Assembly: GCA_943331345.2 (NCBI GenBank)
Contig: CALQLF020000008.1
Coordinates: 1-57,774, forward strand
Source of the DNA: Candidatus Planktophila lacus
GTDB lineage: Bacteria > Pseudomonadota > Gammaproteobacteria > Steroidobacterales > Steroidobacteraceae
DNA: 57,774 nt
Direction: 5' to 3'
Part shown: positions 13,203 through 28,578 of the stretch, in pieces
Numbering within the stretch: the stretch's first letter is position 1
Layout of the letters: every line of letters starts with the position of its first letter
The notes under the pieces: model-generated
What the model was told of the DNA's origin: nothing
Database searches by the model: none
The model's input: the letters and a program-made list of their open reading frames with translations, nothing else
Program-made: the position numbers and the translations under genes

Positions 13203-13216
13203 AACGTCCGGACATT
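13203..13216. promoter_or_regulatory. Palindromic operator site A (putative GntR/UTRA target)
   Basis: AACGTCCGGACATT is a palindrome with one imperfect pair (C/A at the second position outside the GTCCGGAC core). It matches sites B, C and D in this window. It ends 19 nt before the ATG of the TonB receptor and just ahead of its Shine-Dalgarno GAGGGC, a position suited to repression. That the regulator at 27147-27947 binds here is inferred. Confidence 0.6.
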
Positions 13217-13235
13217 CCACTCTCGAGGGCATCGC

Positions 13236-15752
13236 ATGAGCAAGCGTCCTGTTTATAGCCTGCTGGCACTCAGCATCGGCACCGTTCTGGCTTCCGCGCA
13301 GGCGTACGCCGCCGCACCATCAGATGGCATTGAAGAAGTCATCGTCACCGCCCGCCAGCGTGCAGAGTCCATCAAGGACGTGCCCGCCTCGGTGCAGGCA
13401 TTCACCACGGCAGACATCGTCTCCGCCGGCATCGAGCGCCCGCAGGACTTCATCGCCCTGACGCCTGGCGTTGCTGCCGTGCAGACCGCCGAAGTCGGCG
13501 ACATGCAGGTGAACATCCGCGGCATCAATACCGGCCGTGACGCCGAGACGAACTTCGCGCTCGTCATCGACGGCGTGCTGCAGACCAACCCGACCGGCTT
13601 CAACCGCGAGCTGGCCAACGTTTCGCAGATCGAAATTCTGAAGGGCCCGCAGGGCGCGCTCTACGGCCGTAACGCCGTCGCCGGCGCCATCATCCTGAAC
13701 ACCCGCAAGCCCTCCGACGCTTTCGAGGCGGACGTGGATGTGGGCGTGGCCAACAAGAGCACATTCAAGGGTAGCGTGTACCTGTCCGGCCCCCTCGGCG
13801 AGAACGCTGGTGGCAGCCTCTCGGCCTACCACCGCCGTACGGATGGCTTCTTCTACAACACCACGCTGCGCTGCGGCAACTGCTCGGACTACCTGGAAGA
13901 GACCGGTGGTTCAGGTCGGTTCACGTTCACCGTCGGTGACAACGCCAGCTTCGACGTGAAGGCCGCCTACTCCAAGGTGTCCGCCGGCGCCATTAACTTC
14001 AACGCCGCGTTCGCCCTCCCGGGCTTCGCAGCGGCTTTCGGTAACCCGGACTTCTACCAGAACGTGAATGATCACGCGTTCCAGTTCATGAATAATGTGA
14101 AGCCGGTGAACGAGCAGAAGAACACCAACTTGTCAGTCAAGGGTGACTTCGAACTCGACGTGGGCACCCTCACCGCCGTGGCCGCCTACAACAAGCAGGA
14201 AAACTACTTCCTGACGGACGGTACCTCGGCTGCCTTCGGTGTCTACGCCGCGGAGTCCACCTGCCGCGCCTCGGTCGCTGCCGCACCCGCCGGTCCGCTG
14301 CCCTCGCCGTTCTTCTACGCCAACCAGTTCGGCCCCGGCATTCCGGGCTTCGACCTGCTCCCGCCGTACAGCCCGACTACTTGCGACGGCTACCAGTACC
14401 AGCAGCGCGACCAGCGCGATGCCTCGCTCGAACTGCGCTTGACGTCGAAGGGTGACCAAGCCACCCGTTGGCAGGTCGGCGCCTACTACGGCGACATCGA
14501 CCGTCGCGTCGTCGTGGCACAGGGTGCAGACCGCAACCGCGGCTTCCTGGCTCAGGCTTACGTGCCGCCCACCGGCGCGAACCCCACGGACCTGCTGTAC
14601 GACGACAGCTACAAGACCAAGATCTCCGCCATCTTCGGCAACATCGCTCGCGACGTTGCTGACGGCGTGGAAGTGGCCTTGGCCCTCCGTTACGACCAGG
14701 AAAAGCGCAACGTTTCCAACAACGTCCCGCACGTTCTGGCCCCGTACCTGCAGCCCGCCATCTGCGCCCCGAACTGCTACATCAACCCGGCCTACAACGT
14801 AGCCGGCGCGGGTAGCAGCATCCCGGACCGCAGCAAGACCTTCAGCCAGTTGCAGCCCAAGCTGACCGTGAACTGGAAGCTGAACACCGACGTGTCGCTG
14901 TTCGCCTCCTACGGCTACGGTTTCCGTAGCGGCGGCTTCAACTCGCAGGGTTCGGCCGCCACCGTGGCTGCCTACTACAACAACCCGGTCGTAGGTGCGT
15001 TGAACCTGAAGTACGTCAACGCGGCTGGCGCCGTCACCACGACGCCGTCCTTGGGCGATGTCAACGACTCCTTCAAGAAGGAAGTGTCGAAGGCTGCGGA
15101 AGCCGGCTTCAAGGCCTCGCTGCTGGACAACCACCTGTCCATCAACGGTGCGGTGTTCTACACGAAGGTCGAGAACAGCCAGTTCTTCAACTTCTTCGCC
15201 GGCCCGTTCGGCCTGCTGCGTGTGGTCACGAACATCGACGAGGAAACCCTGAAGGGTGCTGAAGTGGACTTCCGTTGGAAGGCCACGGACATGTTCAGCA
15301 TCTACGGCGGCTTGGGTCTGGTGGACGGCAAGATCGACAAGTACGCCGGTCGCCCCTACACCGCTGGCAACAAGGTGCCTTACGCGCCGGAATACACCGG
15401 CAACCTCGGCGCCGAGTTCACCTACCCGGTGGGCGACTCCATGGAACTGGTCGTCCGTCTCGACGGCACGGCCGTGGGCGATACCTGGTTCCACCCGGTG
15501 CAGGACGACTCGGTGCAGACGCTGTTCGGTGCCCCGGGCAACTACAGCAAGACCAAGCGTGATGCCTACCAGCTGTACAACGCTCGCGTCAGCCTGCGTG
15601 CGGACACCTGGGACGCCACCATCTGGGGCCGCAACCTGGGCGATAAGGACTACCTCGCGGAGGTCATCCCGGCCCCCGAGTTCGGTGGTTCGTTCATCCA
15701 CTCCGGCACCGGCCGCGCCTACGGCCTCGACCTGAGCTACAAGTTCAAGTAA
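13236..15752 (+). CDS. TonB-dependent outer-membrane receptor 1
   Basis: Outer-membrane active transporter, 838 residues. After a signal peptide (LLALSIGTVLASAQAYAAAP) comes a TonB box region EEVIVTARQRAESIKDVPAS, a plug domain (LTPGVAAVQTAEV, IRGINTGRD, ILKGPQGALYGRNAVAGAI) and a C-terminal barrel ending in the aromatic-terminated LDLSYKFK. ATG 13236 has GAGGGC upstream. The barrel resembles the catechol/organic-substrate receptors common in oligotrophs and not a specific siderophore type; the ligand is unknown. Codon choice is strikingly uniform (AAG, CTG, GGC, GTG, TTC, TAC) compared with neighbours, which suggests strong expression. It carries operator site A upstream and a strong terminator downstream, so it is its own transcription unit. 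Confidence 0.93.
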   Translation: MSKRPVYSLLALSIGTVLASAQAYAAAPSDGIEEVIVTARQRAESIKDVPASVQAFTTADIVSAGIERPQDFIALTPGVAAVQTAEVGDMQVNIRGINTGRDAETNFALVIDGVLQTNPTGFNRELANVSQIEILKGPQGALYGRNAVAGAIILNTRKPSDAFEADVDVGVANKSTFKGSVYLSGPLGENAGGSLSAYHRRTDGFFYNTTLRCGNCSDYLEETGGSGRFTFTVGDNASFDVKAAYSKVSAGAINFNAAFALPGFAAAFGNPDFYQNVNDHAFQFMNNVKPVNEQKNTNLSVKGDFELDVGTLTAVAAYNKQENYFLTDGTSAAFGVYAAESTCRASVAAAPAGPLPSPFFYANQFGPGIPGFDLLPPYSPTTCDGYQYQQRDQRDASLELRLTSKGDQATRWQVGAYYGDIDRRVVVAQGADRNRGFLAQAYVPPTGANPTDLLYDDSYKTKISAIFGNIARDVADGVEVALALRYDQEKRNVSNNVPHVLAPYLQPAICAPNCYINPAYNVAGAGSSIPDRSKTFSQLQPKLTVNWKLNTDVSLFASYGYGFRSGGFNSQGSAATVAAYYNNPVVGALNLKYVNAAGAVTTTPSLGDVNDSFKKEVSKAAEAGFKASLLDNHLSINGAVFYTKVENSQFFNFFAGPFGLLRVVTNIDEETLKGAEVDFRWKATDMFSIYGGLGLVDGKIDKYAGRPYTAGNKVPYAPEYTGNLGAEFTYPVGDSMELVVRLDGTAVGDTWFHPVQDDSVQTLFGAPGNYSKTKRDAYQLYNARVSLRADTWDATIWGRNLGDKDYLAEVIPAPEFGGSFIHSGTGRAYGLDLSYKFK

Positions 15753-15801
15753 GAGCCAAAGGCACGAACCACCGCCTCTTTACCGGGGCGGTGGCTCTAC
15801 G

Positions 15802-15830
15802 AAAAAACCCAGCTTCGGCTGGGTTTTTTC
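15802..15830 (+). terminator. Intrinsic terminator after TonB receptor 1
   Basis: AAAAAACCCAGC-TTCG-GCTGGGTTTTTT gives a perfect 12-bp stem with a UUCG tetraloop and a T-rich tail (CTTTT). It lies 50 nt after the receptor stop. A second inverted repeat (15769-15776 with 15787-15794, CCACCGCC/GGCGGTGG) lies just before it and may form a separate stem in the 3' UTR. Confidence 0.92.
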
Positions 15831-15880
15831 TTTTATGGGAACGGCACAGGAAAGCCGCAGCGCGCTGCCATTCCGCTAAG

Positions 15881-15892
15881 ATGTCCGGACAT
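15881..15892. promoter_or_regulatory. Palindromic operator site B (putative GntR/UTRA target)
   Basis: ATGTCCGGACAT is a perfect 12-bp palindrome, 26 nt before the ATG of the isochorismatase-family hydrolase. It overlaps a weak -10-like hexamer TAAGAT (15877-15882). The right flank (CATTCACCCTC) resembles that of site D (CATTTACCCTC). Confidence 0.65.
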
Positions 15893-15918
15893 TCACCCTC
15901 CCAGCCCAAGAGGCCGTC

Positions 15919-16596
15919 ATGTCCGCCAATCCTGCCTACATCGACAGCTACACGCGTCAGTTCAAGGTCTCGCCCAAAGACACCGCCTTGGTCATCGTGG
16001 ATCTGCAATACGCCAGCGGCAGCCGCCACCACGGTCTCGGCAAGCTGTTGGCCGCGGCGGGAACGCTGGCCGATGCAGAATACCGTTTCGCCCGCATCGA
16101 CAACGTGGTGGTGCCGAACTCGCGTCGCCTCGCGGAAACTTTCCGTGCTCTTGGCGCGCGCGTCATCTATGTCACCTACGGCTGCGAACTGCCGGATTTC
16201 GGTGATGCTCCCATTCAACTTCGCGAATGGCTCATCGCCACCAACAACACCGCCGGTCAGCGCGAGCACGAGATAGTCGACGAGATCAAGCCACTGCCGG
16301 GCGACCTTGTGCTGAACAAGAACACTATGGGTGCCTTCGGCTCCACGGGCATTGATGCTCACCTGAAAAGCCTCGGCGTGAAGAACGTCGTGGTCACGGG
16401 CGTTTCCACCAATAATTGCGTGGGCATGACCGCACAGGAAGCCAGCGACCGGCAGTATGGTGTGGTGGTGGTCAGCGATGCGACCGGCACCTGCAGCGAC
16501 GAAATGCAGGACGTGACCTTGAAAACTTTCCGCCGTCTGTGGGGCCGCGTTGCCTCGACGGCCGAGGTCATCGCCGAAATGCAGGCCCGCGCGTGA
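15919..16596 (+). CDS. Isochorismatase-family cysteine hydrolase
   Basis: Cytoplasmic cysteine amidohydrolase-type enzyme, 225 residues. The catalytic triad is visible: Asp28 in LVIVDLQ, Lys134 in LNKNTMGAF and Cys167 in GVSTNNCVGMTAQEA, with the family's non-proline cis-peptide context before the Cys. Members hydrolyse amides or related bonds (nicotinamide, N-carbamoylsarcosine, ureidoacrylate, biuret, maleamate). The active substrate cannot be read from sequence. It is the first gene of a five-gene operon preceded by operator B, which puts it under the same presumed GntR control as the CoA-ester genes; this suggests it opens an amide or carbamoyl group of the imported compound. Its GTGA stop overlaps the nitroreductase start. 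Confidence 0.88.
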   Translation: MSANPAYIDSYTRQFKVSPKDTALVIVDLQYASGSRHHGLGKLLAAAGTLADAEYRFARIDNVVVPNSRRLAETFRALGARVIYVTYGCELPDFGDAPIQLREWLIATNNTAGQREHEIVDEIKPLPGDLVLNKNTMGAFGSTGIDAHLKSLGVKNVVVTGVSTNNCVGMTAQEASDRQYGVVVVSDATGTCSDEMQDVTLKTFRRLWGRVASTAEVIAEMQARA

Positions 16597-17321
16597 GCGT
16601 GGACCCGAACCGCCCCACCGGCAGTTCTACCGCGCCTGCGAAGAGCGTCAGCGAAGCGCTGCGCACGCGGCAGTCGGGGCGTGCCTTCCTGCCCACGCCC
16701 GTGCCACTGGCCACCGTGACCGAACTGCTGGATCTGGCCCGCTGGGCACCTAGCGGCAGCAATATCCAGCCGTGGCGCGCGCATGCGCTGTCGGGTGCCC
16801 CACTGCAGGCCGTGGTGGATGAAACCATGACGATGGCGAAAGCCGGCCAGGTGCCTGAGCAGGAATACCTGTACTACGCGAACCCTCTGCCGGAGGTTTA
16901 TTTGCAGCGCCGTCGTGCCAATGGCTGGGGCCTTTACGGACATCTCAGCATTGGCAAGGGAGACCGTGTGGCCTCCACCGCCCAAGCCCTTCGCAACTTC
17001 ACCTTCTTCGGCGCACCGGTAGCGTTGTTCTTCTTTATCGACGCCGGCTTGGAAAAAGGCAGCTGGGTCGACTACGGCATGTTCCTGCAAAGCTTCATGC
17101 TGGCGGCGCGTGAACGGGGTTTGCACACCTGCCCGCAAGCGGCTTGGCTGCCCTACCACGCACTGGCGCGACGCCACTGCGGGATGGATGAGGGTTGGAC
17201 GCTCGTCTGCGGCATGGCACTTGGCCACCTCGACACCACCGAGTACGTGAATGGCTTCCGCACCCCACGCTTACCGGTGAGCGACTTCCTCAGTAGCAAC
17301 GGCTTTCAGGACGCGCAGTGA
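16593..17321 (+). CDS. Nitroreductase-family flavoprotein
   Basis: FMN-binding nitroreductase fold, 242 residues. Signature N-terminus EALRTRQSGRAF and LLDLARWAPSGSNIQPW, and C-terminal GMALGHLD. The family reduces nitro groups, quinones or activated C=C bonds, or performs dehydrogenations; members closer to BluB fragment flavin. The substrate is unknown. The start is GTG 16593 in a GTGA overlap with the hydrolase stop, and its own stop overlaps the DMT permease start in the same way, so the genes are translationally coupled. The pairing with an amidohydrolase-type enzyme hints at stepwise processing of one substrate. Confidence 0.85.
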   Translation: MSVDPNRPTGSSTAPAKSVSEALRTRQSGRAFLPTPVPLATVTELLDLARWAPSGSNIQPWRAHALSGAPLQAVVDETMTMAKAGQVPEQEYLYYANPLPEVYLQRRRANGWGLYGHLSIGKGDRVASTAQALRNFTFFGAPVALFFFIDAGLEKGSWVDYGMFLQSFMLAARERGLHTCPQAAWLPYHALARRHCGMDEGWTLVCGMALGHLDTTEYVNGFRTPRLPVSDFLSSNGFQDAQ

Positions 17322-18256
17322 ACCCGAAGCCCCAAGGCTTGGCTTTCGGCGTAGTTGCCGCCATGGCCGGGGCCGTCGGATTCGCTACCAAAGGGTTGTT
17401 TGCGAAAAAGCTTTACGAACACGGCTGGACTTATGACGCCGTGCAGGTCGCGCGCATGTGGCTGGCCTTGCCAGTGCTATGGCTGTGGGCTTGGTGGCGA
17501 GTCGGCCCTGCCCTGCTAAAGCCACCGCGGGCAGCACTCATAGGCGCAGCTCTTGCTGGCCTCTTCTGCTACCACTTCGGCGCGATGATCAATTTCTACG
17601 CGCTCACGCTCATCGATGCCAGCCTCGAGCGAGTGCTGCTCTTCACTTATCCGTCGATGGTGGTACTTGTCCACTCGATAATGCACCGCAAACTGCCGGG
17701 CTCGCGAACCGTTCTCGCACTGCTCGCAACTTTTCTCGGTATCATCGCCGCCGTTAGCGGCCTCGACGCCCACATCTTCCGCGCCAACATGCACGGCGCA
17801 ATGCTCGTGTTGGTCTGCGCCAGCACCACAACCGTGTACTTCCTCGCGAGCGACCGTTGGACACCGCAGGTAGGCAGCGCGGCGTTCACGGTATGGGCAA
17901 TGACCGCAGCGACCCTCGGCCTCAGCGTCCAGGCACTGCTGGTCCCGAGCGCTCGTCCTCCATTGCCGGGCCGCACGGATCTGCCGCTCCTGCTGGGATT
18001 GGTGGGCCTTGCCACCGTCTTCGCCATGCTGATGACTGCCGAGGGCGTGCGCCGCCTGGGTGCACAGCGAGCTTCGGTGATCAGCACCGTGGGTCCACCT
18101 GCAACCATCTTGTTGGCGGTACCACTGCTAGGTGAGCGACTAAACCTGGCCCAATGGCTAGGCGTCGCACTCATCATTGCCGGAATCCTCTTCATGGAAC
18201 TAGCCCGCACCGGCGCCTTAAGCACGCGCGGCCAAGTGCCAACGAGCGCACGCTGA
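17318..18256 (+). CDS. DMT-family (EamA-type) inner-membrane transporter
   Basis: Drug/metabolite transporter superfamily protein, 312 residues, about ten hydrophobic segments in two EamA repeats (first repeat AAMAGAVGFATKGLFAKKLY onward, second from ANMHGAMLVLVCASTTTVYF). The end of the second repeat, TVGPPATILLAVPLLGERLNLAQWLGVALIIAGILF, is typical. Members export amino acids and metabolites or import sugars and nucleotides; the direction is unknown. It starts with GTG overlapping the nitroreductase stop. Within this operon it could move the substrate of the two upstream enzymes or export a by-product. Confidence 0.87.
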   Translation: MNPKPQGLAFGVVAAMAGAVGFATKGLFAKKLYEHGWTYDAVQVARMWLALPVLWLWAWWRVGPALLKPPRAALIGAALAGLFCYHFGAMINFYALTLIDASLERVLLFTYPSMVVLVHSIMHRKLPGSRTVLALLATFLGIIAAVSGLDAHIFRANMHGAMLVLVCASTTTVYFLASDRWTPQVGSAAFTVWAMTAATLGLSVQALLVPSARPPLPGRTDLPLLLGLVGLATVFAMLMTAEGVRRLGAQRASVISTVGPPATILLAVPLLGERLNLAQWLGVALIIAGILFMELARTGALSTRGQVPTSAR

Positions 18257-19030
18257 ATGCAGCCAGCGGCGTACGGCATCCCGTTCCCGCCTACGGATTG
18301 CTGCTTCTTCCTCGACTTCGACGGCACGTTAGTCGACTTCGCCGCCACACCCGACACCATAGAAGTGCCGGGAGAATTGGTTTCGCTCCTCGCCGCGCTG
18401 GCTGCGGCGCATGACGGCGCGCTCGCCATCGTGACCGGCCGGGCACTGCCCGATATCGATCGTCATCTCGCTCCCCTGCGTTTGCCTACGGCAGCCCTGC
18501 ATGGGACGGTGCGTCGCAACCTAGCAGGACAACTCTACGGCGGTCCGCATGCTGTCGACTTCGCTACGCGTACCTCCATGGTGCGTGAGCGAATCGACGT
18601 ATGGCTAGCGGCACACCCGGGTTTGCTGCTGGAAGACAAGGGTTTGGCCCTGGCAGTACATCTCCGCGCGCTGCCTTATGAAGTACGTCTGTTGCACGAA
18701 CTGCAAGCTGCACTGCACGGCGAACTGACCCCCTTTTTGCCCGAAGGCGTGGAACTACTGAACGGCAACCTCGTCGTGGAAGTGCGACCCCGCGGTGCTG
18801 ACAAGCGTTCGGCCGTAGAGGCGTTCCTCGCTGAAGCACCGTTTCGCAAACGCTTGCCCGTGTACCTGGGCGACGATCTGGCAGATATCAACGCGATGGC
18901 CGCGGTGGAAAGCCGCGGCGGCCTGGCTATCGCTATCGGCCACCGCCTGCAGAAGCACTACCACCTGCCTTCGCCGACGGCGGCACGGGCGTGGCTAGCG
19001 AACTGCATGAAGCGCGGCGGTGCACCATGA
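18257..19030 (+). CDS. otsB: Trehalose-6-phosphate phosphatase
   Basis: HAD-superfamily phosphatase turning trehalose-6-phosphate into trehalose, 257 residues. HAD motif I is FFLDFDGTLVDF (Asp20 nucleophile, Asp22), motif II lies in AIVTGRAL, and motif IV is YLGDDLADINAM where the usual OtsB text is GDDxTDE. Length and order fit OtsB. Its ATG directly follows the permease TGA (TGAATG), and its stop overlaps the otsA ATG, so otsB and otsA are coupled, the normal arrangement. Trehalose is a compatible solute and stress protectant; its place at the end of a catabolic-looking operon is unexpected. Confidence 0.9.
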   Translation: MQPAAYGIPFPPTDCCFFLDFDGTLVDFAATPDTIEVPGELVSLLAALAAAHDGALAIVTGRALPDIDRHLAPLRLPTAALHGTVRRNLAGQLYGGPHAVDFATRTSMVRERIDVWLAAHPGLLLEDKGLALAVHLRALPYEVRLLHELQAALHGELTPFLPEGVELLNGNLVVEVRPRGADKRSAVEAFLAEAPFRKRLPVYLGDDLADINAMAAVESRGGLAIAIGHRLQKHYHLPSPTAARAWLANCMKRGGAP

Positions 19031-20445
19031 GCCGGCTGGTTGTGGTCTCCAACCGTCTTGACCTACCCCCGGGAAACCACGCCCCAGGCGGTCTTGCCGT
19101 GAGTTTGGCAGCCATACTGCGGGCCACCGGCGGACTATGGTTCGGCTGGAGTGGCGACGTTGTAGCGGGAGCTCAGGGCCTACAACGTCGCACTGTGGGC
19201 AACATCGACTATGCCACCGTTGACCTGACGCCTGCGGAATACCGCGACTACTACCATGGCTTCAGCAATAGCGTCCTGTGGCCACTGTGCCATGGCCTGC
19301 CGTCTGCAACGGCATCTGGCGCTGCCCATTATCTTGCCTATCAAAAGATGAACGAGCGTTACGCTGGACTGCTTTTCCCCTTGTTGGAACGCAGTGATCT
19401 CCTTTGGGTGCATGACTTCCATTTACTGCCCCTCGGCAACCACCTGCGCGCGGCTGGCTGTCGCCATCGCATCGGCTTCTTTCTACATGTACCGTTCCCT
19501 CCATTGCAGCAACAAGTAGAAGGCAAAGCATTGCTCAGGGCTTTATTGGCCTATGACCTGATCGGCTTCCAGACGGCAGAAGATCTGCTAGCGTTTCAGG
19601 CAGCAGCGCGTTGGCAATGGGGAGCCAGCGCAATAGCGGACGATGGCAGCTTGCATGCCGAGGGGCGGAGCGTCGCGACGGGCGTCTTTCCCGTAGGTAT
19701 TGACGTCGACGCAGTCAGCGCGGCAGCGCTACGAATGGCGCCAGCGGAGGTAGCCCCGTGGTGGCCCAGAGGCCGCGACGTCCCACGCCTCATCGGCGCA
19801 GACCGCCTCGACGCCACCAAAGGCTTGCCGCTGCGTCTTGAGGCTTACAAGTACTTCCTTGCCACACAGCCCTGCAATGCTGGTTTGCCAGACTACCTGC
19901 AACTCGTCACGCCATCGCGAAACGATCTGCCCGCCCACCAGTCGCTGCGCGAATCCATTCAAGTGGCAACCATCGCCGTAAACAGGCTGCACACGGCAAC
20001 GAACGCGAACGAGGGCGCCGAGAATCTTGCGCTGCGCTGTGCCTTCACCGCCGTGGAACACACTACGCTGATGGGCCTACTCGCGACGGCGGACGTCGGC
20101 CTCATTACTCCACTGAAAGACGGCATGAACCTGCTCGCCAAGGAATTTGTGGCAGCGCAACCGGCGGCGAACCCGGGCGTGCTAGTGCTGTCGGCATACG
20201 CCGGCGCAGCACGCGAACTGGAGGCCGCCTTGCTGGTAGACCCCCGCGACGTCCATGAAGTAGCTCGCGCTATTGCCACCGCCCTGAACATGCCACTGAG
20301 TGAGCGTCAGCAACGGCAGCTAACATTACTCGCCGCTTTGAAGCGCAACGAGCGGTCCGCTTGGCAAGAACGCTTCTTGGAACGTCTGCTGGATTGCAGG
20401 GCCTACGGAGAAGCCCGAAAGCGCGCTACTGAAGGGCCCTATTGA
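19027..20445 (+). CDS. otsA: Trehalose-6-phosphate synthase
   Basis: GT20 glycosyltransferase joining UDP-glucose and glucose-6-phosphate, 472 residues, normal length. Landmarks: RLVVVSNRL, PGGLAVSL, GGLWFGWSGD, YYHGFSNSVLWPLCH, WVHDFHLLPL, IGFFLHVPFP, GADRLDATKGLPLR (sugar-nucleotide Arg and Lys kept, although the common SVERLDYSKGL is changed) and TPLKDGMNLLAKEFVAAQ. ATG 19027 overlaps the otsB stop. The gene ends 35 nt before the convergent selD stop; I see no clear terminator in that gap. Confidence 0.93.
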   Translation: MSRLVVVSNRLDLPPGNHAPGGLAVSLAAILRATGGLWFGWSGDVVAGAQGLQRRTVGNIDYATVDLTPAEYRDYYHGFSNSVLWPLCHGLPSATASGAAHYLAYQKMNERYAGLLFPLLERSDLLWVHDFHLLPLGNHLRAAGCRHRIGFFLHVPFPPLQQQVEGKALLRALLAYDLIGFQTAEDLLAFQAAARWQWGASAIADDGSLHAEGRSVATGVFPVGIDVDAVSAAALRMAPAEVAPWWPRGRDVPRLIGADRLDATKGLPLRLEAYKYFLATQPCNAGLPDYLQLVTPSRNDLPAHQSLRESIQVATIAVNRLHTATNANEGAENLALRCAFTAVEHTTLMGLLATADVGLITPLKDGMNLLAKEFVAAQPAANPGVLVLSAYAGAARELEAALLVDPRDVHEVARAIATALNMPLSERQQRQLTLLAALKRNERSAWQERFLERLLDCRAYGEARKRATEGPY

Positions 20446-20480
20446 AGGATCCTGTGCAGGAAATCTGCGCGCCAAAGCCG

Positions 20481-21497: not shown

Positions 21498-21501
21498 TCG
21501 C

Positions 21502-22797
21502 TCAGCGCTCCGCATTCACCGGCGCGGATTTCGAAGCCTCGAAGCGCAGGCCCAGGGTCTCCGCGATGGTCGTACGCTGCACCTCGTCCGTGCCACCGGG
21601 AATGCGCAGGTTGCGGGCAATCTGGAACAACTTGTTCACCGGGTTGTTGCGCATGACACCAAAGCCACCGTGCAACTGCAGTGCGCGGTCTGCAACGCGA
21701 TAGAACGACTCGTCGTTGCTCACCTTCAGTGCACAGATACGCCGAATCTCGTCCTTCGGGCGCGGCAGCGCATACCAGGGGCCCGGGCTGTCGATGCTGC
21801 GCGCCACTTCCAGCGACAGCGAACGCGTCTGCAACCAATCGATATACATGTCGGCCACCATCCACTGAATGCCTTGATTGGCACCCAGCGGACGGTCGCC
21901 AATTTGCCGACTTTGCACACGGTCCAAGGATTTCTCGATGAGATACTTGGACCAACCGGAGCACATACCCGCGCGACGCATGCGCGTGTAGTTGAATGAC
22001 ATGACGGCAATGTCGAAGCCCTGCCCCACCTCTCCGATGACCGCACTTTGCGGCAGCACGAGGTTGTCGAAGAACAACTCGCCCGTGTACCCGTCACCAA
22101 ACATGGTCTGGTAGACGCGCCCCGTGCGGTAGCCCTTGCCCAGCATCTCGCGGGCATCGAACATGAAATACGTGAAGGTCTTGCGACCACCGCCCGGATT
22201 CGTCACGGCGAGAACTTGCACCACATCCGCGTCGAAGGCATTGGTGATGTAGGCCTTGGAGCCGTTCAGCACCCAGTCATCACCGCGACGCGTGGCATGG
22301 GTCTTCATGTCGAAAAGATTGGAGCCCGCTCCGGCCTCGGTAACGGCATGTAAGCTGGTCTTCTCGCCGCGCACGAGCGGGTCCGTGAATTGCTCACGCT
22401 GGTGGTCATGGCAATACAGTAGCCGCGGAGTGGCGCCTTCCGACCAGGACAACAAAGCCGGGTTCAGGCCGCAGCCGTAGCCGTAAACCTGCTCTTCCAC
22501 GTAAATCATGTCGGTGCGGCCAAGGCCACCGCCACCGAGATGGGTCGGCAGATGCGCGCTGTAGACACCCACCTTGCCGGCGGCCCGCATAATCTCGCGC
22601 CGCGCCGCAATGATTTCGGGGTGCAGCTTGCCATCGGCATCGAGGTACTGGCTCTCGTCCTCCAGACGATGACGGAGTGCCTCTTCCCGCGGCGCCACTT
22701 CATCGCGGTAAAGGGCCGTGACACGCCCGAGGATATCCGCCAGATGCGCGGGCGGGTTCAGTTCCTTGTCGAGTGGCGAGGGTGCGCTGTCGTTCAT
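21502..22797 (-). CDS. Acyl-CoA dehydrogenase family protein, catalytic Glu replaced
   Basis: FAD-dependent acyl-CoA dehydrogenase fold, 431 residues. N-terminal helical domain, then TEAGAGSNLFDMKTHATRRG and WVLNGSKAYITNAFDAD (middle beta domain), and C-terminal helices with LQLHGGFGVMRNNPVNKLFQ. The C-terminal signature is RIPGGTDEVQR: Gly401 stands where the MCAD-type catalytic Glu (EGT) should be, and the alternative isovaleryl-CoA-type position, near MSFNYTRMRRAG, also looks non-acidic by eye. It may use another base or have a different reaction. ATG 22797 follows GGAGCG. It is fourth in the mmgE operon, 40 nt after the ApgM-like gene and 4 nt before selD. Confidence 0.88.
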   Translation of the reverse strand: MNDSAPSPLDKELNPPAHLADILGRVTALYRDEVAPREEALRHRLEDESQYLDADGKLHPEIIAARREIMRAAGKVGVYSAHLPTHLGGGGLGRTDMIYVEEQVYGYGCGLNPALLSWSEGATPRLLYCHDHQREQFTDPLVRGEKTSLHAVTEAGAGSNLFDMKTHATRRGDDWVLNGSKAYITNAFDADVVQVLAVTNPGGGRKTFTYFMFDAREMLGKGYRTGRVYQTMFGDGYTGELFFDNLVLPQSAVIGEVGQGFDIAVMSFNYTRMRRAGMCSGWSKYLIEKSLDRVQSRQIGDRPLGANQGIQWMVADMYIDWLQTRSLSLEVARSIDSPGPWYALPRPKDEIRRICALKVSNDESFYRVADRALQLHGGFGVMRNNPVNKLFQIARNLRIPGGTDEVQRTTIAETLGLRFEASKSAPVNAER

Positions 22798-22837
22798 GGT
22801 CGCTCCGTTAATGCAGACGGTGTTCGGGTCCGGCGCG

Positions 22838-24160
22838 TCAATCGGCCGGCATCGGTTCGGGGGAATCGGGCAAGGCCAACGTCCGGGTGGCACCCGGCCG
22901 GTGTCCCAGGAAGAACGGGCGGTTGGCCAGCCCGAGCAGGTAAGGCAGCACTTCGGCCGCACGCAAGCGGCCCACTTCGCCGGCCAGTGCGGAGCGCTCG
23001 CCGAAACTCGTGACGGCATCCGGACGCAAACCGGGAGCCGCAACCACGAAGGGTGTCGGGTCGCCACTGTGCAGCAAGCTGCCGATGGAAGGCGATGCAT
23101 GGTCACCCGTCACGGCCACCACGGCGCGGGAAGACAACTGCAACAGTTCCGCGAGGCCGGCGTCTGTGGCTTCGATGACATCGCGCTTGAAGGCCGGGCG
23201 CTTCGTATGGGCGGCTTCGTCCGTGGCTTTGACGTGCACATGCACGAAGCCGTGATGGTCCAGCAACCGCGCGGCCGCCGCTATACGGCTGCGCATATCA
23301 CCCGCCGGGTCTGCGGGCTGATAAGGAATATCCACCATCTCCATGCCAAGCACTCGCGCCAGGCCACGATAAAGGGCGGTATCCGTCACCGCGGCACCAC
23401 TCAAGCCGTTGGCCGCCTGAAAACTTGGCATAGCCGGGTCCAGCCAGCTGGCCCACTTGGTCACCGCCACATCGAGCGGCGGCAGCCCTGCCGCGCGGCG
23501 CTGAGCATTCACGGGATGCGCCAGCAACACACGACGGCTTTCCAGTAGCCAAGCCTCAAGCGTCGCAGCGAAACGCTGCGCCGCCGCCAGATTGCTGGCC
23601 TCCGGCAAGGCGCGTGGACGCATCCACGGATGCAAGTGGTCGAACAGCGCATCGCTGTCACTGACATCACGAGTACCGGCGCCACGCGCAACCAGCACGC
23701 CTTCCCCAGTACGCAACGGCAGAATGTCGAAGCTCACGCCGTTGCGGGTACGCCCATCGAGAGCGGCGAACAACTCCGCAGCACTCGCCACATCTTCCCG
23801 CGGCCGCGCGCGTGCCCCCAGATACAGCGACCCTTCACGCGGCAGTCCTGCGCGCAAGGCCAGATGAAACAGGGGCTCGCCCACGGGCGGCTGCAACCCG
23901 ACACCCAAGGCTTCGATGGCCGCACGCCCGGGAAACGGCACTTCGCCAAGCCCGAACAACGACCAATGCGCATGCTCGCTGGAAGTGGCTCGGCCGGGGC
24001 CGAAGGGCACATGCACGCCGCTGACGCCCGCAGCCACCAGCGCATCAAGATGAGGCGTCGCGGCAGCCTCGCAAGGCGTCAGTCCGCCCAGTTCTTCGCA
24101 GCCCCGGTCCCCGAGGCCATCGAGGATGACCAACAGCACCGGCAAGCGATCATCGTGCAT
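22838..24160 (-). CDS. ApgM-like phosphoglycerate mutase family protein (alkaline phosphatase superfamily)
   Basis: Metalloenzyme related to archaeal 2,3-bisphosphoglycerate-independent phosphoglycerate mutase, 440 residues. Metal and active-site motifs: LLVILDGLGDRG (Asp14), LTPCEAAATPHLDALVAAG, RATSSEHAHWSLFGLG (the family's GSDTAH becomes SSEHAH), HVKATDEAAH and VTGDHASPSIGSLLHSGDP. ATG 24160 has AAGGAG upstream and overlaps the nucleotidyltransferase stop by 11 nt. The divergent active-site loop argues against simple glycolytic mutase work. In phosphinothricin biosynthesis an ApgM-like protein (PhpH) is paired with a nicotinamide-mononucleotide-adenylyltransferase-like protein (PhpF), the same pair of families as here; whether the chemistry is related is unknown. 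Confidence 0.83.
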   Translation of the reverse strand: MHDDRLPVLLVILDGLGDRGCEELGGLTPCEAAATPHLDALVAAGVSGVHVPFGPGRATSSEHAHWSLFGLGEVPFPGRAAIEALGVGLQPPVGEPLFHLALRAGLPREGSLYLGARARPREDVASAAELFAALDGRTRNGVSFDILPLRTGEGVLVARGAGTRDVSDSDALFDHLHPWMRPRALPEASNLAAAQRFAATLEAWLLESRRVLLAHPVNAQRRAAGLPPLDVAVTKWASWLDPAMPSFQAANGLSGAAVTDTALYRGLARVLGMEMVDIPYQPADPAGDMRSRIAAAARLLDHHGFVHVHVKATDEAAHTKRPAFKRDVIEATDAGLAELLQLSSRAVVAVTGDHASPSIGSLLHSGDPTPFVVAAPGLRPDAVTSFGERSALAGEVGRLRAAEVLPYLLGLANRPFFLGHRPGATRTLALPDSPEPMPAD

Positions 24161-24719
24161 GCGACACTCCTTGCCCTTCGAAGGTCCACGCCTTGAGCAA
24201 GGCATGCGCCCCGCGCGGGACGCTGGCAGGAACGCCTTCCCCCGCAGACAGTGCGCGACGAATCTCCGTTGCGGTCAACCGCTTCGCAGCATCGCCCTCC
24301 ACCACCAACGTGGGGTACCCAGCCGCCGCGAACCGGCGCACCTTCTCCCGCTCCCAATCGGAATAGACCCGCACCAGCTGCGGCGTGCCAGGGGCTACCA
24401 AGGCAGGCCAGCGCTCCGGCGTATCCAAAGGAAAAGGCACGATGTCATAGCGCTCTCGCGCAATCGTCTCCGCCTGCAAGGCAGCGTCGATCAACTGCAC
24501 GCGCTGCTGGTACGAAAAAGGATTGGCACTGGCGAGATGACGATGGGCACTGGCAGCGTGCGGAATCAAGTTCGCCTCATCGGCATTGGTGACGCCGATG
24601 AGCACCCGTTCCGCCAAGCCCAGCGCATGACGCACCATCTCGAGATGGTCGAGATGGAAAGGCTGAAACCGCCCCGTAAAAACCACCAAGGGCAGCGAAG
24701 GAGCCACCGCCGTGGTCAT
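24150..24719 (-). CDS. Nucleotidyltransferase of the NMN adenylyltransferase (NadM-like) family
   Basis: Small Rossmann nucleotidyltransferase, 189 residues. It shows VVFTGRFQPFHLDHLEMVRHAL, where the family (H/T)xGH motif reads HLDH (His22, His25; Gly replaced by Asp), and RLTATEIRRALSAGE near the C-terminus in place of ISSTxIR. Archaeal and bacterial NadM proteins adenylate NMN; relatives are cytidylyltransferases, including PhpF, which activates phosphonoformate with CTP. ATG 24719 overlaps the mmgE stop (ATGA). Its substrate here is open: position between an MmgE/PrpD and an ApgM-like gene suggests activation of a carboxylate or phosph(on)ate intermediate, not NAD synthesis. Confidence 0.8.
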   Translation of the reverse strand: MTTAVAPSLPLVVFTGRFQPFHLDHLEMVRHALGLAERVLIGVTNADEANLIPHAASAHRHLASANPFSYQQRVQLIDAALQAETIARERYDIVPFPLDTPERWPALVAPGTPQLVRVYSDWEREKVRRFAAAGYPTLVVEGDAAKRLTATEIRRALSAGEGVPASVPRGAHALLKAWTFEGQGVSHAR

Positions 24720-26191
24720 GACGAGGGCAGCAAGGCGCATAGCGCCGCCAAGCTTTCGGCCTGCTCGAGGCCCATGACTGCCGCCAACACCGCTTCTGCC
24801 TGCGCCGGCGAAACGCACAACAAGGCGTTGGCCAGAAACTTCGCTTCGATATCTTGCCGCGACAATGGCCGCTCCGCCGCACCGCGGTTCACGCGTTCCC
24901 GTCGCTCGAGACGTCGGCCATCGCGCAAGTGAATCTCTACCTGCCCGGAGAAGTACTCGGGGAACGCCGATTCTTCATCGTGTTCGCACTGCACCTTGGC
25001 ACACAGCGCCAGAATGTCCGGGTCCGTGATACTAGCCGGCTCGAGCTCCTGCAAGCCGAAGCGGCCCCGGACCAAGCAGGCCGCCACGAAGTACGGCAGG
25101 CTGAACTTGGCGTCGTAGTCGCTTTGCGGGCACAGCTTGGCTGCGGCAGGTTCGCAAACGACGGGCATCTGGTTGCGATGAATGCGTGCCGTGATGGACA
25201 CCACCTCTACTGCCTTGAAGCCGTGCTCGGCCTGCAACGCCAGCGCCGCATCGCCACAGGCATGATTGAAGTGGCACACCGGATACGGCTTGATAGCGAC
25301 CGTAGCGGTCTCCCAGCGCTCCCCGAGGCCTTCCAGAAGGTCGCGGTCGTTGCCAGGCCAGCGTCCACCAAGGTAGGTATTGAACAGCCCGAAGCGTCCT
25401 TCGAAGGCCTGTCGCGGGCTTTCAAAACCATGCCGCGCGAGGCTTGCCGCGGTCAGACCACTGGAGGCCGCCCAACCGGGATGCAGCCGCTTGGTCCAAG
25501 TGCCGTCATCCAGAAATTCCATGCTGCCACTGGCCATGCTGAGCGCCAGGCCCTGCCCCGTAGCGAGTTGTTCGGCCGATTGCCCTTGCAGGTAGCCGGC
25601 CGCCAACGCTGCACCGAACACACCCACAACGCCAGTGGGGTGAAAGCCTGCCTTCTGCCACCAGCCACCGGCCTGCAAACCAATTCGCGCGTCGGCTTCC
25701 ACCGCCAGCACGTAGGCCGCCAGTGCCCGCGCGCCGCTAACGCCACGCTTCAGACCTTCGGCCAACACCACGGGCAAGGCACTGGCAGTGGCGTGAACCA
25801 CGCTGCCAGGATGGGTGTCGTCGTAGTCCAGTCCGTGAATCAGGACGCCATTCAGCAGCGCAGCATCGCGCAGGGGAAGCCGTTCGCTTCGACCGATGAC
25901 GACATGCTCGCCAGCACCCGCCACATCAACGATGCCTGCCGCGGTGCGCGCGGCAAAGTCGAAAGTGTTCGAAGCGAACGCGATGCCGATAGCGTCGAGG
26001 ATGCAGAGCTTGGCACCCGCGACGACTTCCGCAGGAACCTGTGCCAAGTCGAAGGCCGCGCCGAAAGCACCCAACCGTTGCGACCACGAAGCCGCTGCGG
26101 TTGACGATGCCGACGGCGAATCTGCCGCTGAGTTCTCAGCAGATTGCGGGAGCGATTCGGCGCGAAGTTCAAGCGGAGCGGGTGCGTTCAC
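24716..26191 (-). CDS. MmgE/PrpD family protein
   Basis: Predicted dehydratase, isomerase or decarboxylase of branched C5-C7 carboxylates, 491 residues. Family landmarks: KLCILDAIGIAFASNTFDFA, DAALLNGVLIHGLDYDDTHPGSVVHATASALPVV, KAGFHPTGVVGVFGAAL, and a C-terminal region with IKPYPVCHFNHACGDAAL. The family includes 2-methylcitrate dehydratase, cis-aconitate decarboxylase and an MmgE/PrpD member in itaconate clusters. I prefer GTG 26191, which has GAGG seven bases upstream; ATG 26230 would leave operator C directly at the start with no ribosome-binding site. First gene of the mmgE-nucleotidyltransferase-apgM-acyl-CoA dehydrogenase-selD operon. The residues before about position 30 are Ala/Ser-rich and poorly conserved. 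Confidence 0.88.
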   Translation of the reverse strand: MNAPAPLELRAESLPQSAENSAADSPSASSTAAASWSQRLGAFGAAFDLAQVPAEVVAGAKLCILDAIGIAFASNTFDFAARTAAGIVDVAGAGEHVVIGRSERLPLRDAALLNGVLIHGLDYDDTHPGSVVHATASALPVVLAEGLKRGVSGARALAAYVLAVEADARIGLQAGGWWQKAGFHPTGVVGVFGAALAAGYLQGQSAEQLATGQGLALSMASGSMEFLDDGTWTKRLHPGWAASSGLTAASLARHGFESPRQAFEGRFGLFNTYLGGRWPGNDRDLLEGLGERWETATVAIKPYPVCHFNHACGDAALALQAEHGFKAVEVVSITARIHRNQMPVVCEPAAAKLCPQSDYDAKFSLPYFVAACLVRGRFGLQELEPASITDPDILALCAKVQCEHDEESAFPEYFSGQVEIHLRDGRRLERRERVNRGAAERPLSRQDIEAKFLANALLCVSPAQAEAVLAAVMGLEQAESLAALCALLPSS

Positions 26192-26234
26192 GTCAATGCC
26201 TCGTATGGCCAGCGGCGCACGGCGGAGCATAACG

Positions 26235-26252
26235 CAAATGTCCGGACATTTG
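26235..26252. promoter_or_regulatory. Palindromic operator site C (putative GntR/UTRA target)
   Basis: CAAATGTCCGGACATTTG is a perfect 18-bp palindrome, the best of the four copies. It lies in the gap between the citE-like stop (26293) and the mmgE start, 43 nt ahead of the GTG at 26191. So mmgE and the genes after it probably have their own regulated promoter, even though they lie on the same strand as gntR and citE. Confidence 0.72.
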
Positions 26253-26292
26253 GGGTTTTTGATTCCCCGGTCGAGCGCCCTGAAAACGGGGT

Positions 26293-27159
26293 TCAGGCCC
26301 CCTGCGCCGCCGCCAACACACGGCGCGCCTTTTCCACCACCGGGTAGTCGATGAACTCGCCATCCACCCGCAGCGAGGCCACGCCTTCTGCTTCGGCCGC
26401 GGCAAAGGCTTCGACAATCTTCTGTGCCCGCGCCACTTCCGCAGCGCTAGGCGCAAAAGCCGCGTGGCACAGGGCCACTTGGTCCGGGTGAATGAGCAAT
26501 TTGCCGTAAAGCCCGAACTGGCGTGCCCGGGCTGCAGAGCTGGCGAAACGCTCCGGCTCCTTCACCTGCACCGTCACGGTATCGATGGGTGCCGCGAGCC
26601 CCGCCGCACGGGACACATGGACAAGACGCGAACGCAGGTAATCGAACTCCTGCTCGCCCGCCGTCCACTGCAGGCCCAAGTCCAGCGAGTAGTCGGCGCC
26701 ACCGAACGCGAAACGACGGACGCGCGGCGAAGCCGCCGCCAGCGCTTCCAGATGGCTTTCACCCAGCGCGGTCTCGATGATGGGCAACAACGGCAAAGCA
26801 CCGACTACGAGGCCCCGCTCGCGCTCCAGCTGTGTCAACACCCAGTCCAGCACCTGCAATTGCGCGGCGCTTTCCGCCTTGGGCACCATCACGCCATCGA
26901 GCCCCGGGCCGACGATGGTCTGCAGGTCTCCCCAGCACCACGGCGTGTCTACGCCATTCACCCGAACGAACCCGAGGCCGGGGCGCGGCACTTGCAAAGC
27001 ACGCACCACGCTCTCGCGAGCAGATAGCTTTTCGTCGACAGCTACCGCGTCTTCAAGGTCGAGGATGGCAACATCGGCACCACTCTGAAACACCTTCGCG
27101 GCGCGGCGTTCGTGGTTACCGGGGGCGAACAGAAAACTGCGGGCTTTCACGTGGTCCAT
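26293..27159 (-). CDS. CitE-like CoA-ester lyase (HpcH/HpaI aldolase family)
   Basis: TIM-barrel Mg-dependent C-C lyase, 288 residues. N-terminus ARSFLFAPGN, metal-binding region VAILDLEDAVAVDEK, RVNG, GVMVPKAESA, PIIETALG and FGGADYSLDLG are all present, and KLLIHPDQVAL is typical near the end. Relatives cleave citramalyl-CoA, malyl-CoA or beta-methylmalyl-CoA. Next to MaoC, CaiB and MmgE/PrpD genes, cleavage of (S)-citramalyl-CoA to acetyl-CoA and pyruvate is the leading guess. Its ATG overlaps the gntR stop by 13 nt, so it is co-translated with the regulator. Confidence 0.88.
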   Translation of the reverse strand: MDHVKARSFLFAPGNHERRAAKVFQSGADVAILDLEDAVAVDEKLSARESVVRALQVPRPGLGFVRVNGVDTPWCWGDLQTIVGPGLDGVMVPKAESAAQLQVLDWVLTQLERERGLVVGALPLLPIIETALGESHLEALAAASPRVRRFAFGGADYSLDLGLQWTAGEQEFDYLRSRLVHVSRAAGLAAPIDTVTVQVKEPERFASSAARARQFGLYGKLLIHPDQVALCHAAFAPSAAEVARAQKIVEAFAAAEAEGVASLRVDGEFIDYPVVEKARRVLAAAQGA

Positions 27160-27947
27160 GAACCGGCTCCTTCAGCGCCAGACTGCCAACCGCGACGCAA
27201 CTGGATGGAATAGGTGTAACGGTCGGCGGGGTGTTCCGAGACGCTGACCTCGAAGACCTTGCGGTCTTCGCCGAAGTAGCGACGCACCACCTGCAAGCTA
27301 GGCGACCCGGCTGCCACCTCGAGCACTTCGGCCAGCCCCTCGGGCACTAGACCTGCCCGAATCTCGACACGCACGTCGTTCACTCGATGACCAAATTGCT
27401 GTTCGATCATCTCGTACACCGGCTGCAATTTGCGGCCCATCAGTTCGGCGACGCCGGCGAATTCGGGGAGCACATAAAGGTCGACATGGCAGATCGGCAG
27501 GCGCGTTTCGCGCATGCGTCGCACGGCGCTCACCTTCACCCACTGCGACCCGACGGAACAACCGATGAGCCGCGCTAGTTTTCGCGTGGCCCGCACAGGC
27601 TCCACCTGCAACACCGTCAATTGGCTTTCAGCGGGGTACCGGAGCAGTTCTTCGGGCGAGCGTACGGACTGCACGTAGCTTTGCTGCGGTTCGCGGGCTT
27701 TGACTACCGTGCCGATACCCTGATGGCGACCGATGAGCCCGAGGCTCTCCAGACGCCGCAGCGCCTCGCGCACGGTGTGGCGACTGACGCCAAACTGGGT
27801 GACGAGTTCCAGTTCGCCAGGCACGGTAGCGCCCACAGGCAGCTTGCCCGTACGAATGGACTCCAGCAGGGCTTCCGCTACCTGCTCATAACGCTTGCGG
27901 CCACCCGTAGGCGCCGCCTTCATCCGTTCCGCCTTGCGTATGGCCAT
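27147..27947 (-). CDS. GntR-family transcriptional regulator with UTRA domain (HutC subfamily)
   Basis: DNA-binding regulator, 266 residues. The N-terminal winged helix runs RYEQVAEALLESIRTGKLP to SRHTVREALRRLESLGLIGRHQGIGTVV (about residues 20-85); the C-terminal UTRA ligand domain covers about 105-250 (YRYPAESQLTVLQ-like start, RRMRETRLPICHVDLYV, and VVRRYFGEDRKVFEVSVSEHPADRYTY at the end). HutC-type proteins usually bind GT-n-AC palindromes and respond to a pathway intermediate. ATG 27947 has GGGGAG upstream. It is divergent from maoC with operator D between them, implying autoregulation. The same palindrome at three other promoters marks it as the likely controller of a wider regulon. Confidence 0.92.
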   Translation of the reverse strand: MAIRKAERMKAAPTGGRKRYEQVAEALLESIRTGKLPVGATVPGELELVTQFGVSRHTVREALRRLESLGLIGRHQGIGTVVKAREPQQSYVQSVRSPEELLRYPAESQLTVLQVEPVRATRKLARLIGCSVGSQWVKVSAVRRMRETRLPICHVDLYVLPEFAGVAELMGRKLQPVYEMIEQQFGHRVNDVRVEIRAGLVPEGLAEVLEVAAGSPSLQVVRRYFGEDRKVFEVSVSEHPADRYTYSIQLRRGWQSGAEGAGSWTT

Positions 27948-27963
27948 GGCCACTCCCCGCCGG

Positions 27964-27992
27964 TTGACTGCCTCCGGCAGCGCGCCTAGTAT
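27964..27992 (+). promoter_or_regulatory. Sigma-70-type promoter of the maoC operon
   Basis: TTGACT (27964-27969), a 17-nt spacer and TAGTAT (27987-27992) form a good -35/-10 pair. Transcription would start near 27999-28000, so operator D (28004-28021) covers about +4 to +22, where a bound repressor would block initiation or early elongation. Read by eye, not scored. Confidence 0.6.
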
Positions 27993-28003
27993 GCCATGGA
28001 ACC

Positions 28004-28021
28004 TAAATGTCCGTACATTTA
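28004..28021. promoter_or_regulatory. Palindromic operator site D (putative GntR/UTRA target)
   Basis: TAAATGTCCGTACATTTA: arms of seven bases are perfectly inverted around a CCGT centre (the two flanking centre positions do not pair). It lies 56 nt from the gntR ATG and 38 nt from the maoC ATG, so one site may control both directions. Confidence 0.7.
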
Positions 28022-28059: not shown

Positions 28060-28578
28060 ATGGTGCAAAACGTCAAACAAGTCGGCCCGCAGCGCTACCG
28101 GGAAACCTTCGGTCGCTATTACGAAGACTTCGTCATCGGCGACGTCTACGAACACCGCCCAGGCCGCACCATCAGCGAAACCGACAACACCTGGTTCACG
28201 CTGCTGACCATGAACACGCACCCTCTGCATTTCGACACCGAATACGCCAAGGCCACCGAGTTTGGTAAGCCATTGGTGTGCAGCCCACTCACCGTCGCCA
28301 TCCTCGTCGGCATGAGCGTAACCGACGTTAGCCAGAAGGCCATTGCGAACCTGGGCTGGAAGGAAATCCGCATGCCGGCACCCGTGTTCATCGGCGACAC
28401 GCTCTACGGCGAAAGCCAAGTGTTGGACAAGCGCGAAAGTAACAAGCGCCCCGGTGCTGGCCTCGTCACCGTGAGCACCACCGGCCGCAACCAGCACGGC
28501 ACTATCGTCTGCACTTTCGAGCGCACCATTCTCGTGGCCAAACATGGCCACAGCGTTGAAGACAGGATCGGGTACTAA
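28060..28578 (+). CDS. MaoC-family dehydratase (possible itaconyl/mesaconyl-CoA hydratase)
   Basis: Single hot-dog-domain hydratase, 172 residues. The N-terminus RYRETFGRYYEDFVIGDVYEHRPGRTISETDN and the MaoC core (NTHPLHFDTEYAKATEFGKPLV, with the catalytic Asp/His dyad in the HFD region) are clear, followed by LVCSPLTVAILVGMSV. Single-domain members of this length next to CitE-like lyases hydrate itaconyl-CoA or mesaconyl-CoA to citramalyl-CoA; a mycobacterial example sits in the same sort of cluster. ATG 28060 has GGAG 8 nt upstream. First gene of the maoC-acyl-CoA dehydrogenase-caiB-caiB operon. The substrate assignment is inferred from context. Confidence 0.88.
   Translation: MVQNVKQVGPQRYRETFGRYYEDFVIGDVYEHRPGRTISETDNTWFTLLTMNTHPLHFDTEYAKATEFGKPLVCSPLTVAILVGMSVTDVSQKAIANLGWKEIRMPAPVFIGDTLYGESQVLDKRESNKRPGAGLVTVSTTGRNQHGTIVCTFERTILVAKHGHSVEDRIGY

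Follow-up and report, generated by a model that had tools for sequence, protein, structure and literature searches.

Does one transcription factor govern the four similar palindromes that lie before genes between 13.2 and 32.1 kb of contig CALQLF020000008.1 of Candidatus Planktophila lacus (positions 1 to 57,774; the window hereafter means this whole 57.8-kb stretch of DNA), and what would the genes behind them then do together? A first-pass annotation had placed all four units under a single GntR/UTRA regulator and had treated 13.2-32.1 kb as one physiological system. Our analysis indicates that this protein, encoded at 27147-27947, very probably owns the palindrome (consensus WTGTCCGKACAW) as its operator, through which it would control a TonB-energised uptake and catabolic regulon. 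The predicted regulon is not, however, confined to 13.2-32.1 kb as first proposed, but extends past the window, with further sites and targets elsewhere in the same genome and in relatives. The sites and the regulator gene are listed below.

13204..13215, no strand: site A, variant ACGTCCGGACAT, 20 nt before the ATG (13236) of TonB-dependent receptor 1
15881..15892, no strand: site B, ATGTCCGGACAT, 26 nt before an isochorismatase gene
26235..26252, no strand: site C, CAAATGTCCGGACATTTG, a perfect 18-bp palindrome upstream of mmgE
28004..28021, no strand: site D, TAAATGTCCGTACATTTA, in the gap between the divergent regulator and maoC genes
27147..27947, minus strand: GntR/UTRA (HutC-subfamily) regulator, the proposed repressor (PF00392 and PF07702)

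The palindromes and their candidate regulator

Each of the four sequences was recovered on re-reading at the coordinates first given for it, and all are near-identical and intergenic, in a window whose non-coding share by our own gene caller is just 5.3%. They are copies of one palindrome in a somewhat looser sense than first described, site A being imperfect and site D carrying a T in its centre, and G035 has the A variant ahead of its orthologue of the receptor gene (L043:2751). The distance of 19-43 nt originally given between site and start codon must be qualified for site C, which lies 4 nt from the first possible mmgE ATG (26230) and attains the quoted 43 nt only with a later in-frame GTG (counted by hand). 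With at most one mismatch to ATGTCCGGACAT allowed, exactly four places occur in the window against 0.11 expected, a number reached in none of 100 shuffles; with at most two, there are six against 1.43 expected. When 75 distinct 18-mers, all from outside the window's genus, were used to train a weight matrix, it ranked C (27.0), D (23.4), B (22.9) and A (15.0) as the top four positions of the window, although these training sites had been chosen by the 12-bp pattern and hence carry the same bias; the next-best score, 7.3, falls inside a gene.

The earlier statement that no other full copy exists holds for the window but not for the genome (G000; 3.17 Mb, 184 contigs, 96% complete), in which an exact intergenic copy lies at C2:319, between an alpha/beta hydrolase gene and an FCD-type GntR gene. 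This genome contains ten places with at most one mismatch, against three for a reversed control pattern; six are intergenic (A-D and those on C2 and C35) and four lie inside open reading frames. The intergenic C35 site (ATGTCCGGACAA at C35:18923, in the region C35:17500-20500) precedes a tonB gene, taken in its longest reading, by 184 bp. In G014, G034, G051 and G089 the palindrome is 22-24 bp upstream of the gene of the TonB cluster, and ExbB-, ExbD- and IlvD-like genes (names read by eye) are found around TonB genes. Near the fifth site, on C2, an amidohydrolase gene (L042:1192-2715), conserved in G015 and G035, follows the FCD-type GntR gene. A further variant, ATGTCCGTACAA, at C165:374 (L122) is intergenic, lies 26 bp before a gene for an OmpR-type response regulator and recurs only in G052; it is a candidate member of the regulon only.

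The proposed repressor combines an N-terminal GntR winged helix-turn-helix (PF00392, 73.4 bits against a cut-off of 27) with a C-terminal UTRA domain (PF07702, 66.9 bits against 23.8), has the YvoA repressor as its closest solved structure (matching residues 20-247) and is the sole UTRA protein of its genome; a scan of a genome collection with the protein returned two near-identical metagenome-assembled genomes. Its DNA-binding domain is similar to that of AraR from Bacillus subtilis (4egy, E 4.6e-9), which differs from it in the effector domain and has an arabinose regulon, with operators that include a TGTCCGTACA-like sequence. In the portion of PMC4218819 consulted, R41 of AraR is described as touching a G and acting with R45; R56 and R60 of the present regulator, matched by like spacing rather than by alignment, may be their equivalents.

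With members of the HutC subfamily (HutC, PhnF, YvoA, DasR, TreR) the protein shares the winged helix-turn-helix and UTRA architecture, the GT-N4-AC palindrome and a gene divergent from a target operon. It differs from them in exceeding none of the 25 NCBIfam cut-offs shown (e.g. HutC, 102 against 220 bits; PhnF, 93 against 157), in an operator centre of CCGG/CCGT, and in a regulon of TonB receptors, TonB and coenzyme A (CoA) enzymes. The operator at sites B and C, TGT-CCGG-ACA, has 4 nt between GT and AC, as do HutC-type sites according to the part of PMC4494728 available to us, which gives 2-3 for FadR-type sites. That part also presents the HutC consensus centre, GTMTAKAC, as a trend, with published exceptions to its motifs; relative to it the outer M and K fit the present operator, whilst the central TA is replaced by CG.

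Co-occurrence, conservation and promoter geometry

Orthologues of the regulator were found in 29 of 150 genomes of the family (the window's own included), distributed over 10 of 25 genera. All 29 of these UTRA genomes contain a WTGTCCGKACAW match, compared with 36 of the 121 that lack the protein (P ~3e-13); forward matches, summed by hand, number 103 in the former set and 44 in the latter, where most of the 36 genomes have one each. The contrast is strong within genera g13, in which matches occur in 6/6 protein-bearing and 1/8 other genomes, and g19 (1/1 and 1/8); the corresponding figures are 5/5 and 0/1 in g24, 1/1 and 0/1 in g3, and 6/6 and 1/1 in g15. Taken with the single UTRA protein of the genome, the HutC-type spacing and the failure of an FCD-type regulator to account for the inspected loci (see below), this co-occurrence supports the proposal that one GntR/UTRA protein would act on all four units.

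Among the sites in regions fetched from the 29 UTRA genomes (a set outside which the C35:18923 site falls), 100 of 108 are intergenic; 7 of 9 first-fetched sites of genomes without the protein are inside called genes. Gene coordinates in relatives derive from our simple codon-usage gene caller, and single starts may be wrong. The outcomes named from the outset as refuting the proposal, random matches in coding DNA and sites not conserved before orthologous genes, did not materialise, although four of the ten near-matches in the own genome fall inside open reading frames; conservation before such genes was found in several genera. Beyond the family, a class-wide sample contained a homologue at E 1e-35 in 4 of 369 genomes, two from the window's genus and two from other families, the latter proteins being 34-35% identical to the regulator; in one of these (G461) TTGTCCGGACAA lies ~4 kb from the homologue gene, and in the other (G514) no such core was found in 20 kb.

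Conservation is clearest at maoC. Of the 29 UTRA genomes, 25 (with the window counted) carry the palindrome in the promoter region of maoC, in almost every case in the gap between regulator and maoC; the other four, G078, G084, G114 and G122, have it elsewhere within the 16-20 kb fetched. The surrounding DNA is little conserved, at 0.37 and 0.25 bits per column in the flanks against 1.77 in the core, a core value inflated by the use of the site itself to align the rows. Sixteen of the 25 maoC promoters, none of them in the window's genus, follow the pattern TTGACA-17/18-TAxxxT with the -10 box directly adjoining the operator (gap 0 or -1), an arrangement that points to repression by promoter occlusion; the strict form with 17-nt spacing occurs in 12 of 25, against a maximum of 0 in 200 shuffles of the upstream bases. 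The window's own maoC promoter is predicted as follows.

27964..27992, plus strand (counted by hand): predicted maoC promoter, TTGACT-17-TAGTAT, its -10 box ending 14 nt before the 12-bp operator

Both operator placements would suit repression by blocking RNA polymerase.

Several observations nevertheless weigh against assigning the palindrome and its targets to this regulator. The CCGG/CCGT centre deviates from the published HutC consensus centre, and the co-occurrence contrast is weak in g4 (3/3 genomes with the protein, 6/11 without) and g23 (1/1 and 5/12). Eight of the 108 sites lie inside called genes, a figure that retains two maoC-gap sites (L055, L063) which are gene-caller errors, and several sites adjoin non-recurrent genes. 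Five sites fetched later came from three UTRA-less genomes: one in G066 precedes HMG-CoA-lyase/hydantoinase genes, two in G064 precede TonB receptors, and two in G067 have no regulon gene nearby. In G066 and G064 the regulator gene may have been lost in assembly gaps, or another regulator may be in use. In the window and three same-genus relatives the TTGACT/TTGACA-17-TAGTAT promoter ends 14-15 nt before the operator instead of meeting it, a further five of the 25 maoC promoters score lower (G100, G125, G042, G094, G091), and a promoter search found nothing convincing at sites A and C and a weak TAAGAT box at B. Neither of the two hydantoinase B genes of the own genome (C76:11632, C35:5470) has a listed strict-pattern site within 10 kb, so that the hydantoinase part of the predicted regulon is supported in relatives and not in the own genome.

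Regulon content and competing explanations

The transcription units behind sites A and B comprise the following genes.

13236..15752, plus strand: TonB-dependent receptor 1, with Pfam Plug and beta-barrel domains (scanned with a longer start)
15919..16596, plus strand: isochorismatase-superfamily amide hydrolase, isochorismatase 1 (PF00857, 118.7 bits)
16593..17321, plus strand: nitroreductase-family flavoprotein (PF00881)
17318..18256, plus strand: EamA-family transporter (PF00892)

The nearest NCBIfam models to isochorismatase 1 are BiuH (79 bits) and RutB (74 bits), both under cut-off, and the one clue to the receptor's ligand is a weak match to the pesticin receptor. Ranked by the number of genomes in which they adjoin a palindrome, the protein clusters are UTRA (22), maoC (21), TonB-dependent receptors (14, the cluster of receptor 1, with 20 proteins), alpha/beta hydrolase (11), isochorismatase 1 (9), FCD regulator (8), TonB (6 plus the window's genome; Pfam check in three), family III CoA-transferase and amidohydrolase_2 (6 each), MmgE/PrpD (5) and HMG-CoA-lyase-like (4). 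Phosphoenolpyruvate carboxylase adjoins a palindrome in 6 genomes, but probably does so passively, through its position beside the receptor. Beyond the window the targets are the alpha/beta hydrolase and TonB in the own genome, and isochorismatases, CoA-transferases, amidohydrolases and HMG-CoA-lyase/hydantoinase operons in relatives. Further back from the palindromes come EamA (found in fetched regions of 19 UTRA genomes), nitroreductase, GST and a second isochorismatase, and in G014, G078 and G089 the HMG-CoA-lyase-like gene is followed by hydantoinases A and B; the more distant genomes of the set add a carbon-nitrogen hydrolase, polysaccharide-deacetylase-like hydrolases and, in G084, a Rieske oxygenase. 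The common theme would be TonB-dependent import, C-N and ester hydrolysis, and CoA-dependent cleavage of a branched diacid.

Three further arrangements were seen around receptors. A second TonB-dependent receptor gene of the window, beside an opposite-strand peptidase S51 gene (32186-35248 and 35037-36209), has no good palindrome. Another TonB-dependent receptor family (L123:1514-4039, L127, L131), in G035, G015 and G020, lies near the alpha/beta hydrolase and the second isochorismatase. In the two largest UTRA genomes, G122 and G114, three exact copies of TTGTCCGGACAA fall within 10 kb (L161 on G122:C1, L163 on G114:C10) beside a LysR-like gene (by eye), a carbon-nitrogen hydrolase, an FAD-binding protein and a TonB receptor; here the operator has another set of targets.

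The genes on either side of site D form the catabolic core.

26293..27159, minus strand: HpcH/HpaI (CitE-like) lyase (PF03328), downstream of the regulator gene
28060..28578, plus strand: MaoC-type enoyl-CoA hydratase, RipB/Ich-like (PF01575)
28582..29751, plus strand: acyl-CoA dehydrogenase 1 (profile matches)
29700..30929, plus strand: family III CoA-transferase 1 (start at 29748 by our gene caller)
30957..32120, plus strand: family III CoA-transferase 2 (profile matches)

The itaconate cluster of Pseudomonas and Yersinia has a LysR regulator, and the alternative that fares best, which we consider possible but unlikely, is that the window holds a plain itaconate/methylsuccinate cluster in which a GntR protein has taken the place of LysR. 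The gene kinds speak for it: the part of PMC12290011 at hand describes use of methylsuccinate and itaconate through a CoA-transferase, methylsuccinyl-CoA dehydrogenase, hydratase, citramalyl-CoA lyase and MmgE/PrpD isomerase, and the ict-ich-ccl-mcd-mmgE cluster given there corresponds to the CoA-transferase, MaoC hydratase, CitE-like lyase, acyl-CoA dehydrogenase and MmgE/PrpD genes here, the hydratase sharing an operon (28060-32120) with CoA-transferase and acyl-CoA dehydrogenase as in that cluster. However, the hydratase scores 235.2 bits with RipB_Ich against a curated cut-off of 340, and the lyase 195 bits with CitE and 159.4 bits with RipC/Ccl, both under cut-off (375 for RipC/Ccl). As these values fall short, the pathway was rejected as the itaconate cluster as such, and we take the chemistry to be alike but the substrate to be another compound, probably a substituted succinate of larger size. 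The window also departs from that cluster in its GntR/UTRA regulator and in its added import and C-N hydrolysis genes; the operator also precedes genes for TonB receptors, TonB, several amide hydrolases and additional CoA-transferases, which the use of small C5 diacids would hardly require. MmgE, moreover, lies in a separate accessory block, present in 6 of 150 genomes as judged by its ApgM-like gene.

That block, which also contains OtsB and OtsA (trehalose-type) genes, is laid out as follows.

18200..26305, no strand: accessory 8.1-kb block, absent at this place from the same-genus G035 and G052
24716..26230, minus strand: MmgE/PrpD-family protein in its longest reading; it opens the operon behind site C
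24150-24740, minus strand: NMNAT-like protein, same operon
22838-24160, minus strand: ApgM-like protein, same operon; it also matches the phosphonoformyl transferase PhpG, less strongly
21502-22797, minus strand: acyl-CoA dehydrogenase 2, same operon
20481-21497, minus strand: SelD-like protein, same operon, above the SelD TIGR cut-off and below that of PRK00943

The SelD-like protein has the motif AGCGGCAAK, the usual SelD motif being AGCGCK. In G035 and G052 the flanks of the block are ~100 bp apart (L043, L126) and 84-94% identical over aligned stretches, and the region from 13.2 to 32.1 kb is accordingly better described as a core plus an accessory insert. Its treatment as one system stands for the core (import, C-N hydrolysis and CoA steps) and gives way at 18.2-26.3 kb; physiological unity is argued here for the core only, and the insert (18257-26230) looks like a biosynthetic or accessory cassette.

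A second alternative, which we regard as improbable, is that the UTRA protein runs the core alone, the mmgE block being otherwise controlled or simply adjacent. The block is missing from two same-genus relatives, its SelD-like, NMNAT-like, ApgM-like and trehalose genes have no obvious fit to a catabolic route, and G042 has an ApgM-like block beside which neither mmgE nor a site was found, a point that also tells against our main reading. Yet when the block, together with isochorismatase 1, is found away from the UTRA locus (G002, G012, G077) it keeps an exact ATGTCCGGACAT at each end; all six genomes of 150 with the ApgM-like gene have the UTRA protein (P ~3e-5); and site C has the top matrix score of the window. 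Site C thus appears to belong to a module that in most cases carries an operator with it. In G020 the block sits between EamA and HpcH and is without the Ots genes, and the ApgM-like protein is 74-78% identical between genera, compared with 46-67% for the regulator.

A third explanation, which we hold to be very improbable, is that the palindrome is the operator of the FCD (FadR-type) GntR regulator on G000:C2, upstream of whose gene, between it and the alpha/beta hydrolase, the exact copy lies; both regulators have GntR-type DNA-binding domains. FCD homologues occur in 40 of 150 genomes, and the best-scoring 20 loci were inspected, a set outside which the FCD loci of UTRA genomes G025, G057, G088, G114 and G122 fall. 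Seven of the 20 have an adjacent hydrolase, all in UTRA genomes and all with a site; the 13 without the hydrolase (12 UTRA-less genomes and G084) have none, i.e. no site at any of the 12 FCD loci of UTRA-less genomes. G002 is an eighth positive, with hydrolase and site, whilst in G034, G051 and G089 the hydrolase has a site without an adjoining FCD gene and in G057 it closes the maoC operon. The site therefore tracks the hydrolase and not the neighbouring FCD gene, and FCD ownership was rejected on this comparison; the operator spacing of 4 also differs from the 2-3 given for FadR-type sites in the consulted part of PMC4494728. That the palindrome is a chance or structural repeat devoid of regulatory role, as its presence, mostly once, in 36 of 121 regulator-less genomes might suggest, runs counter to the co-occurrence and to the conserved placement of sites before orthologous genes and can be dismissed.

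A proposed switch and its meaning

From sites, conservation, co-occurrence, promoter geometry and gene families, all read directly in the DNA, we infer binding, repression, induction, enzyme activities and a substrate class for the GntR/UTRA regulon along the following lines. Without inducer, a dimer of the regulator would occupy operators that overlap or follow the -10 box and so block transcription; bound at site D, it would repress its own gene as well. An effector, probably either the compound taken up or an intermediate derived from it, would bind the UTRA domain and release the repressor. The targets would include the receptors of the outer membrane, TonB (encoded elsewhere in the genome), hydrolases for esters, amides and (in relatives) cyclic amides, and a flavin reductase. 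CoA-transferases, acyl-CoA dehydrogenase, MaoC hydratase and CitE-like lyase would then break down a branched 1,4-dicarboxylate through chemistry resembling that of itaconate/methylsuccinate, whilst the accessory 8-kb block, which has an operator of its own, would be controlled from site C.

More speculatively, and at low odds in our estimation, the regulon might encode an undescribed route for a large compound that is taken up via TonB and contains cyclic amide or imide rings, e.g. chlorophyll- or bilin-derived maleimides and lactams. It is doubtful, if conceivable, that the receptors would import such a compound and that nitroreductase, hydantoinase A/B, isochorismatases and other C-N hydrolases would convert its ring fragments to substituted succinates; just as conjectural is their cleavage to central metabolites by CoA-transferases, acyl-CoA dehydrogenase, MaoC hydratase and CitE-/HMG-CoA-lyase-type enzymes. 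That one repressor would sense an intermediate of this route, with optional modules joining the regulon under their own operator, is an equally slender suggestion.

Searches of open-licence literature for TGTCCGGACA and TGTCCGTACA as text gave, by title, no bacterial-operator paper among the matches listed, and no printed description of such a regulon or pathway was matched among the open-licence literature listed. As a switch it is of an ordinary kind (HutC-type), and the gene set looks undescribed. This lineage gains a well-defined predicted regulon, complete with operator, candidate repressor and promoter geometry. The shared operator would join TonB receptors, isochorismatases, hydantoinase operons and several CoA-transferases that are not otherwise seen as one pathway, and by tying them into one it would narrow the search for the substrate, whilst the accessory 8-kb block appears to carry its operator into different genomic places.

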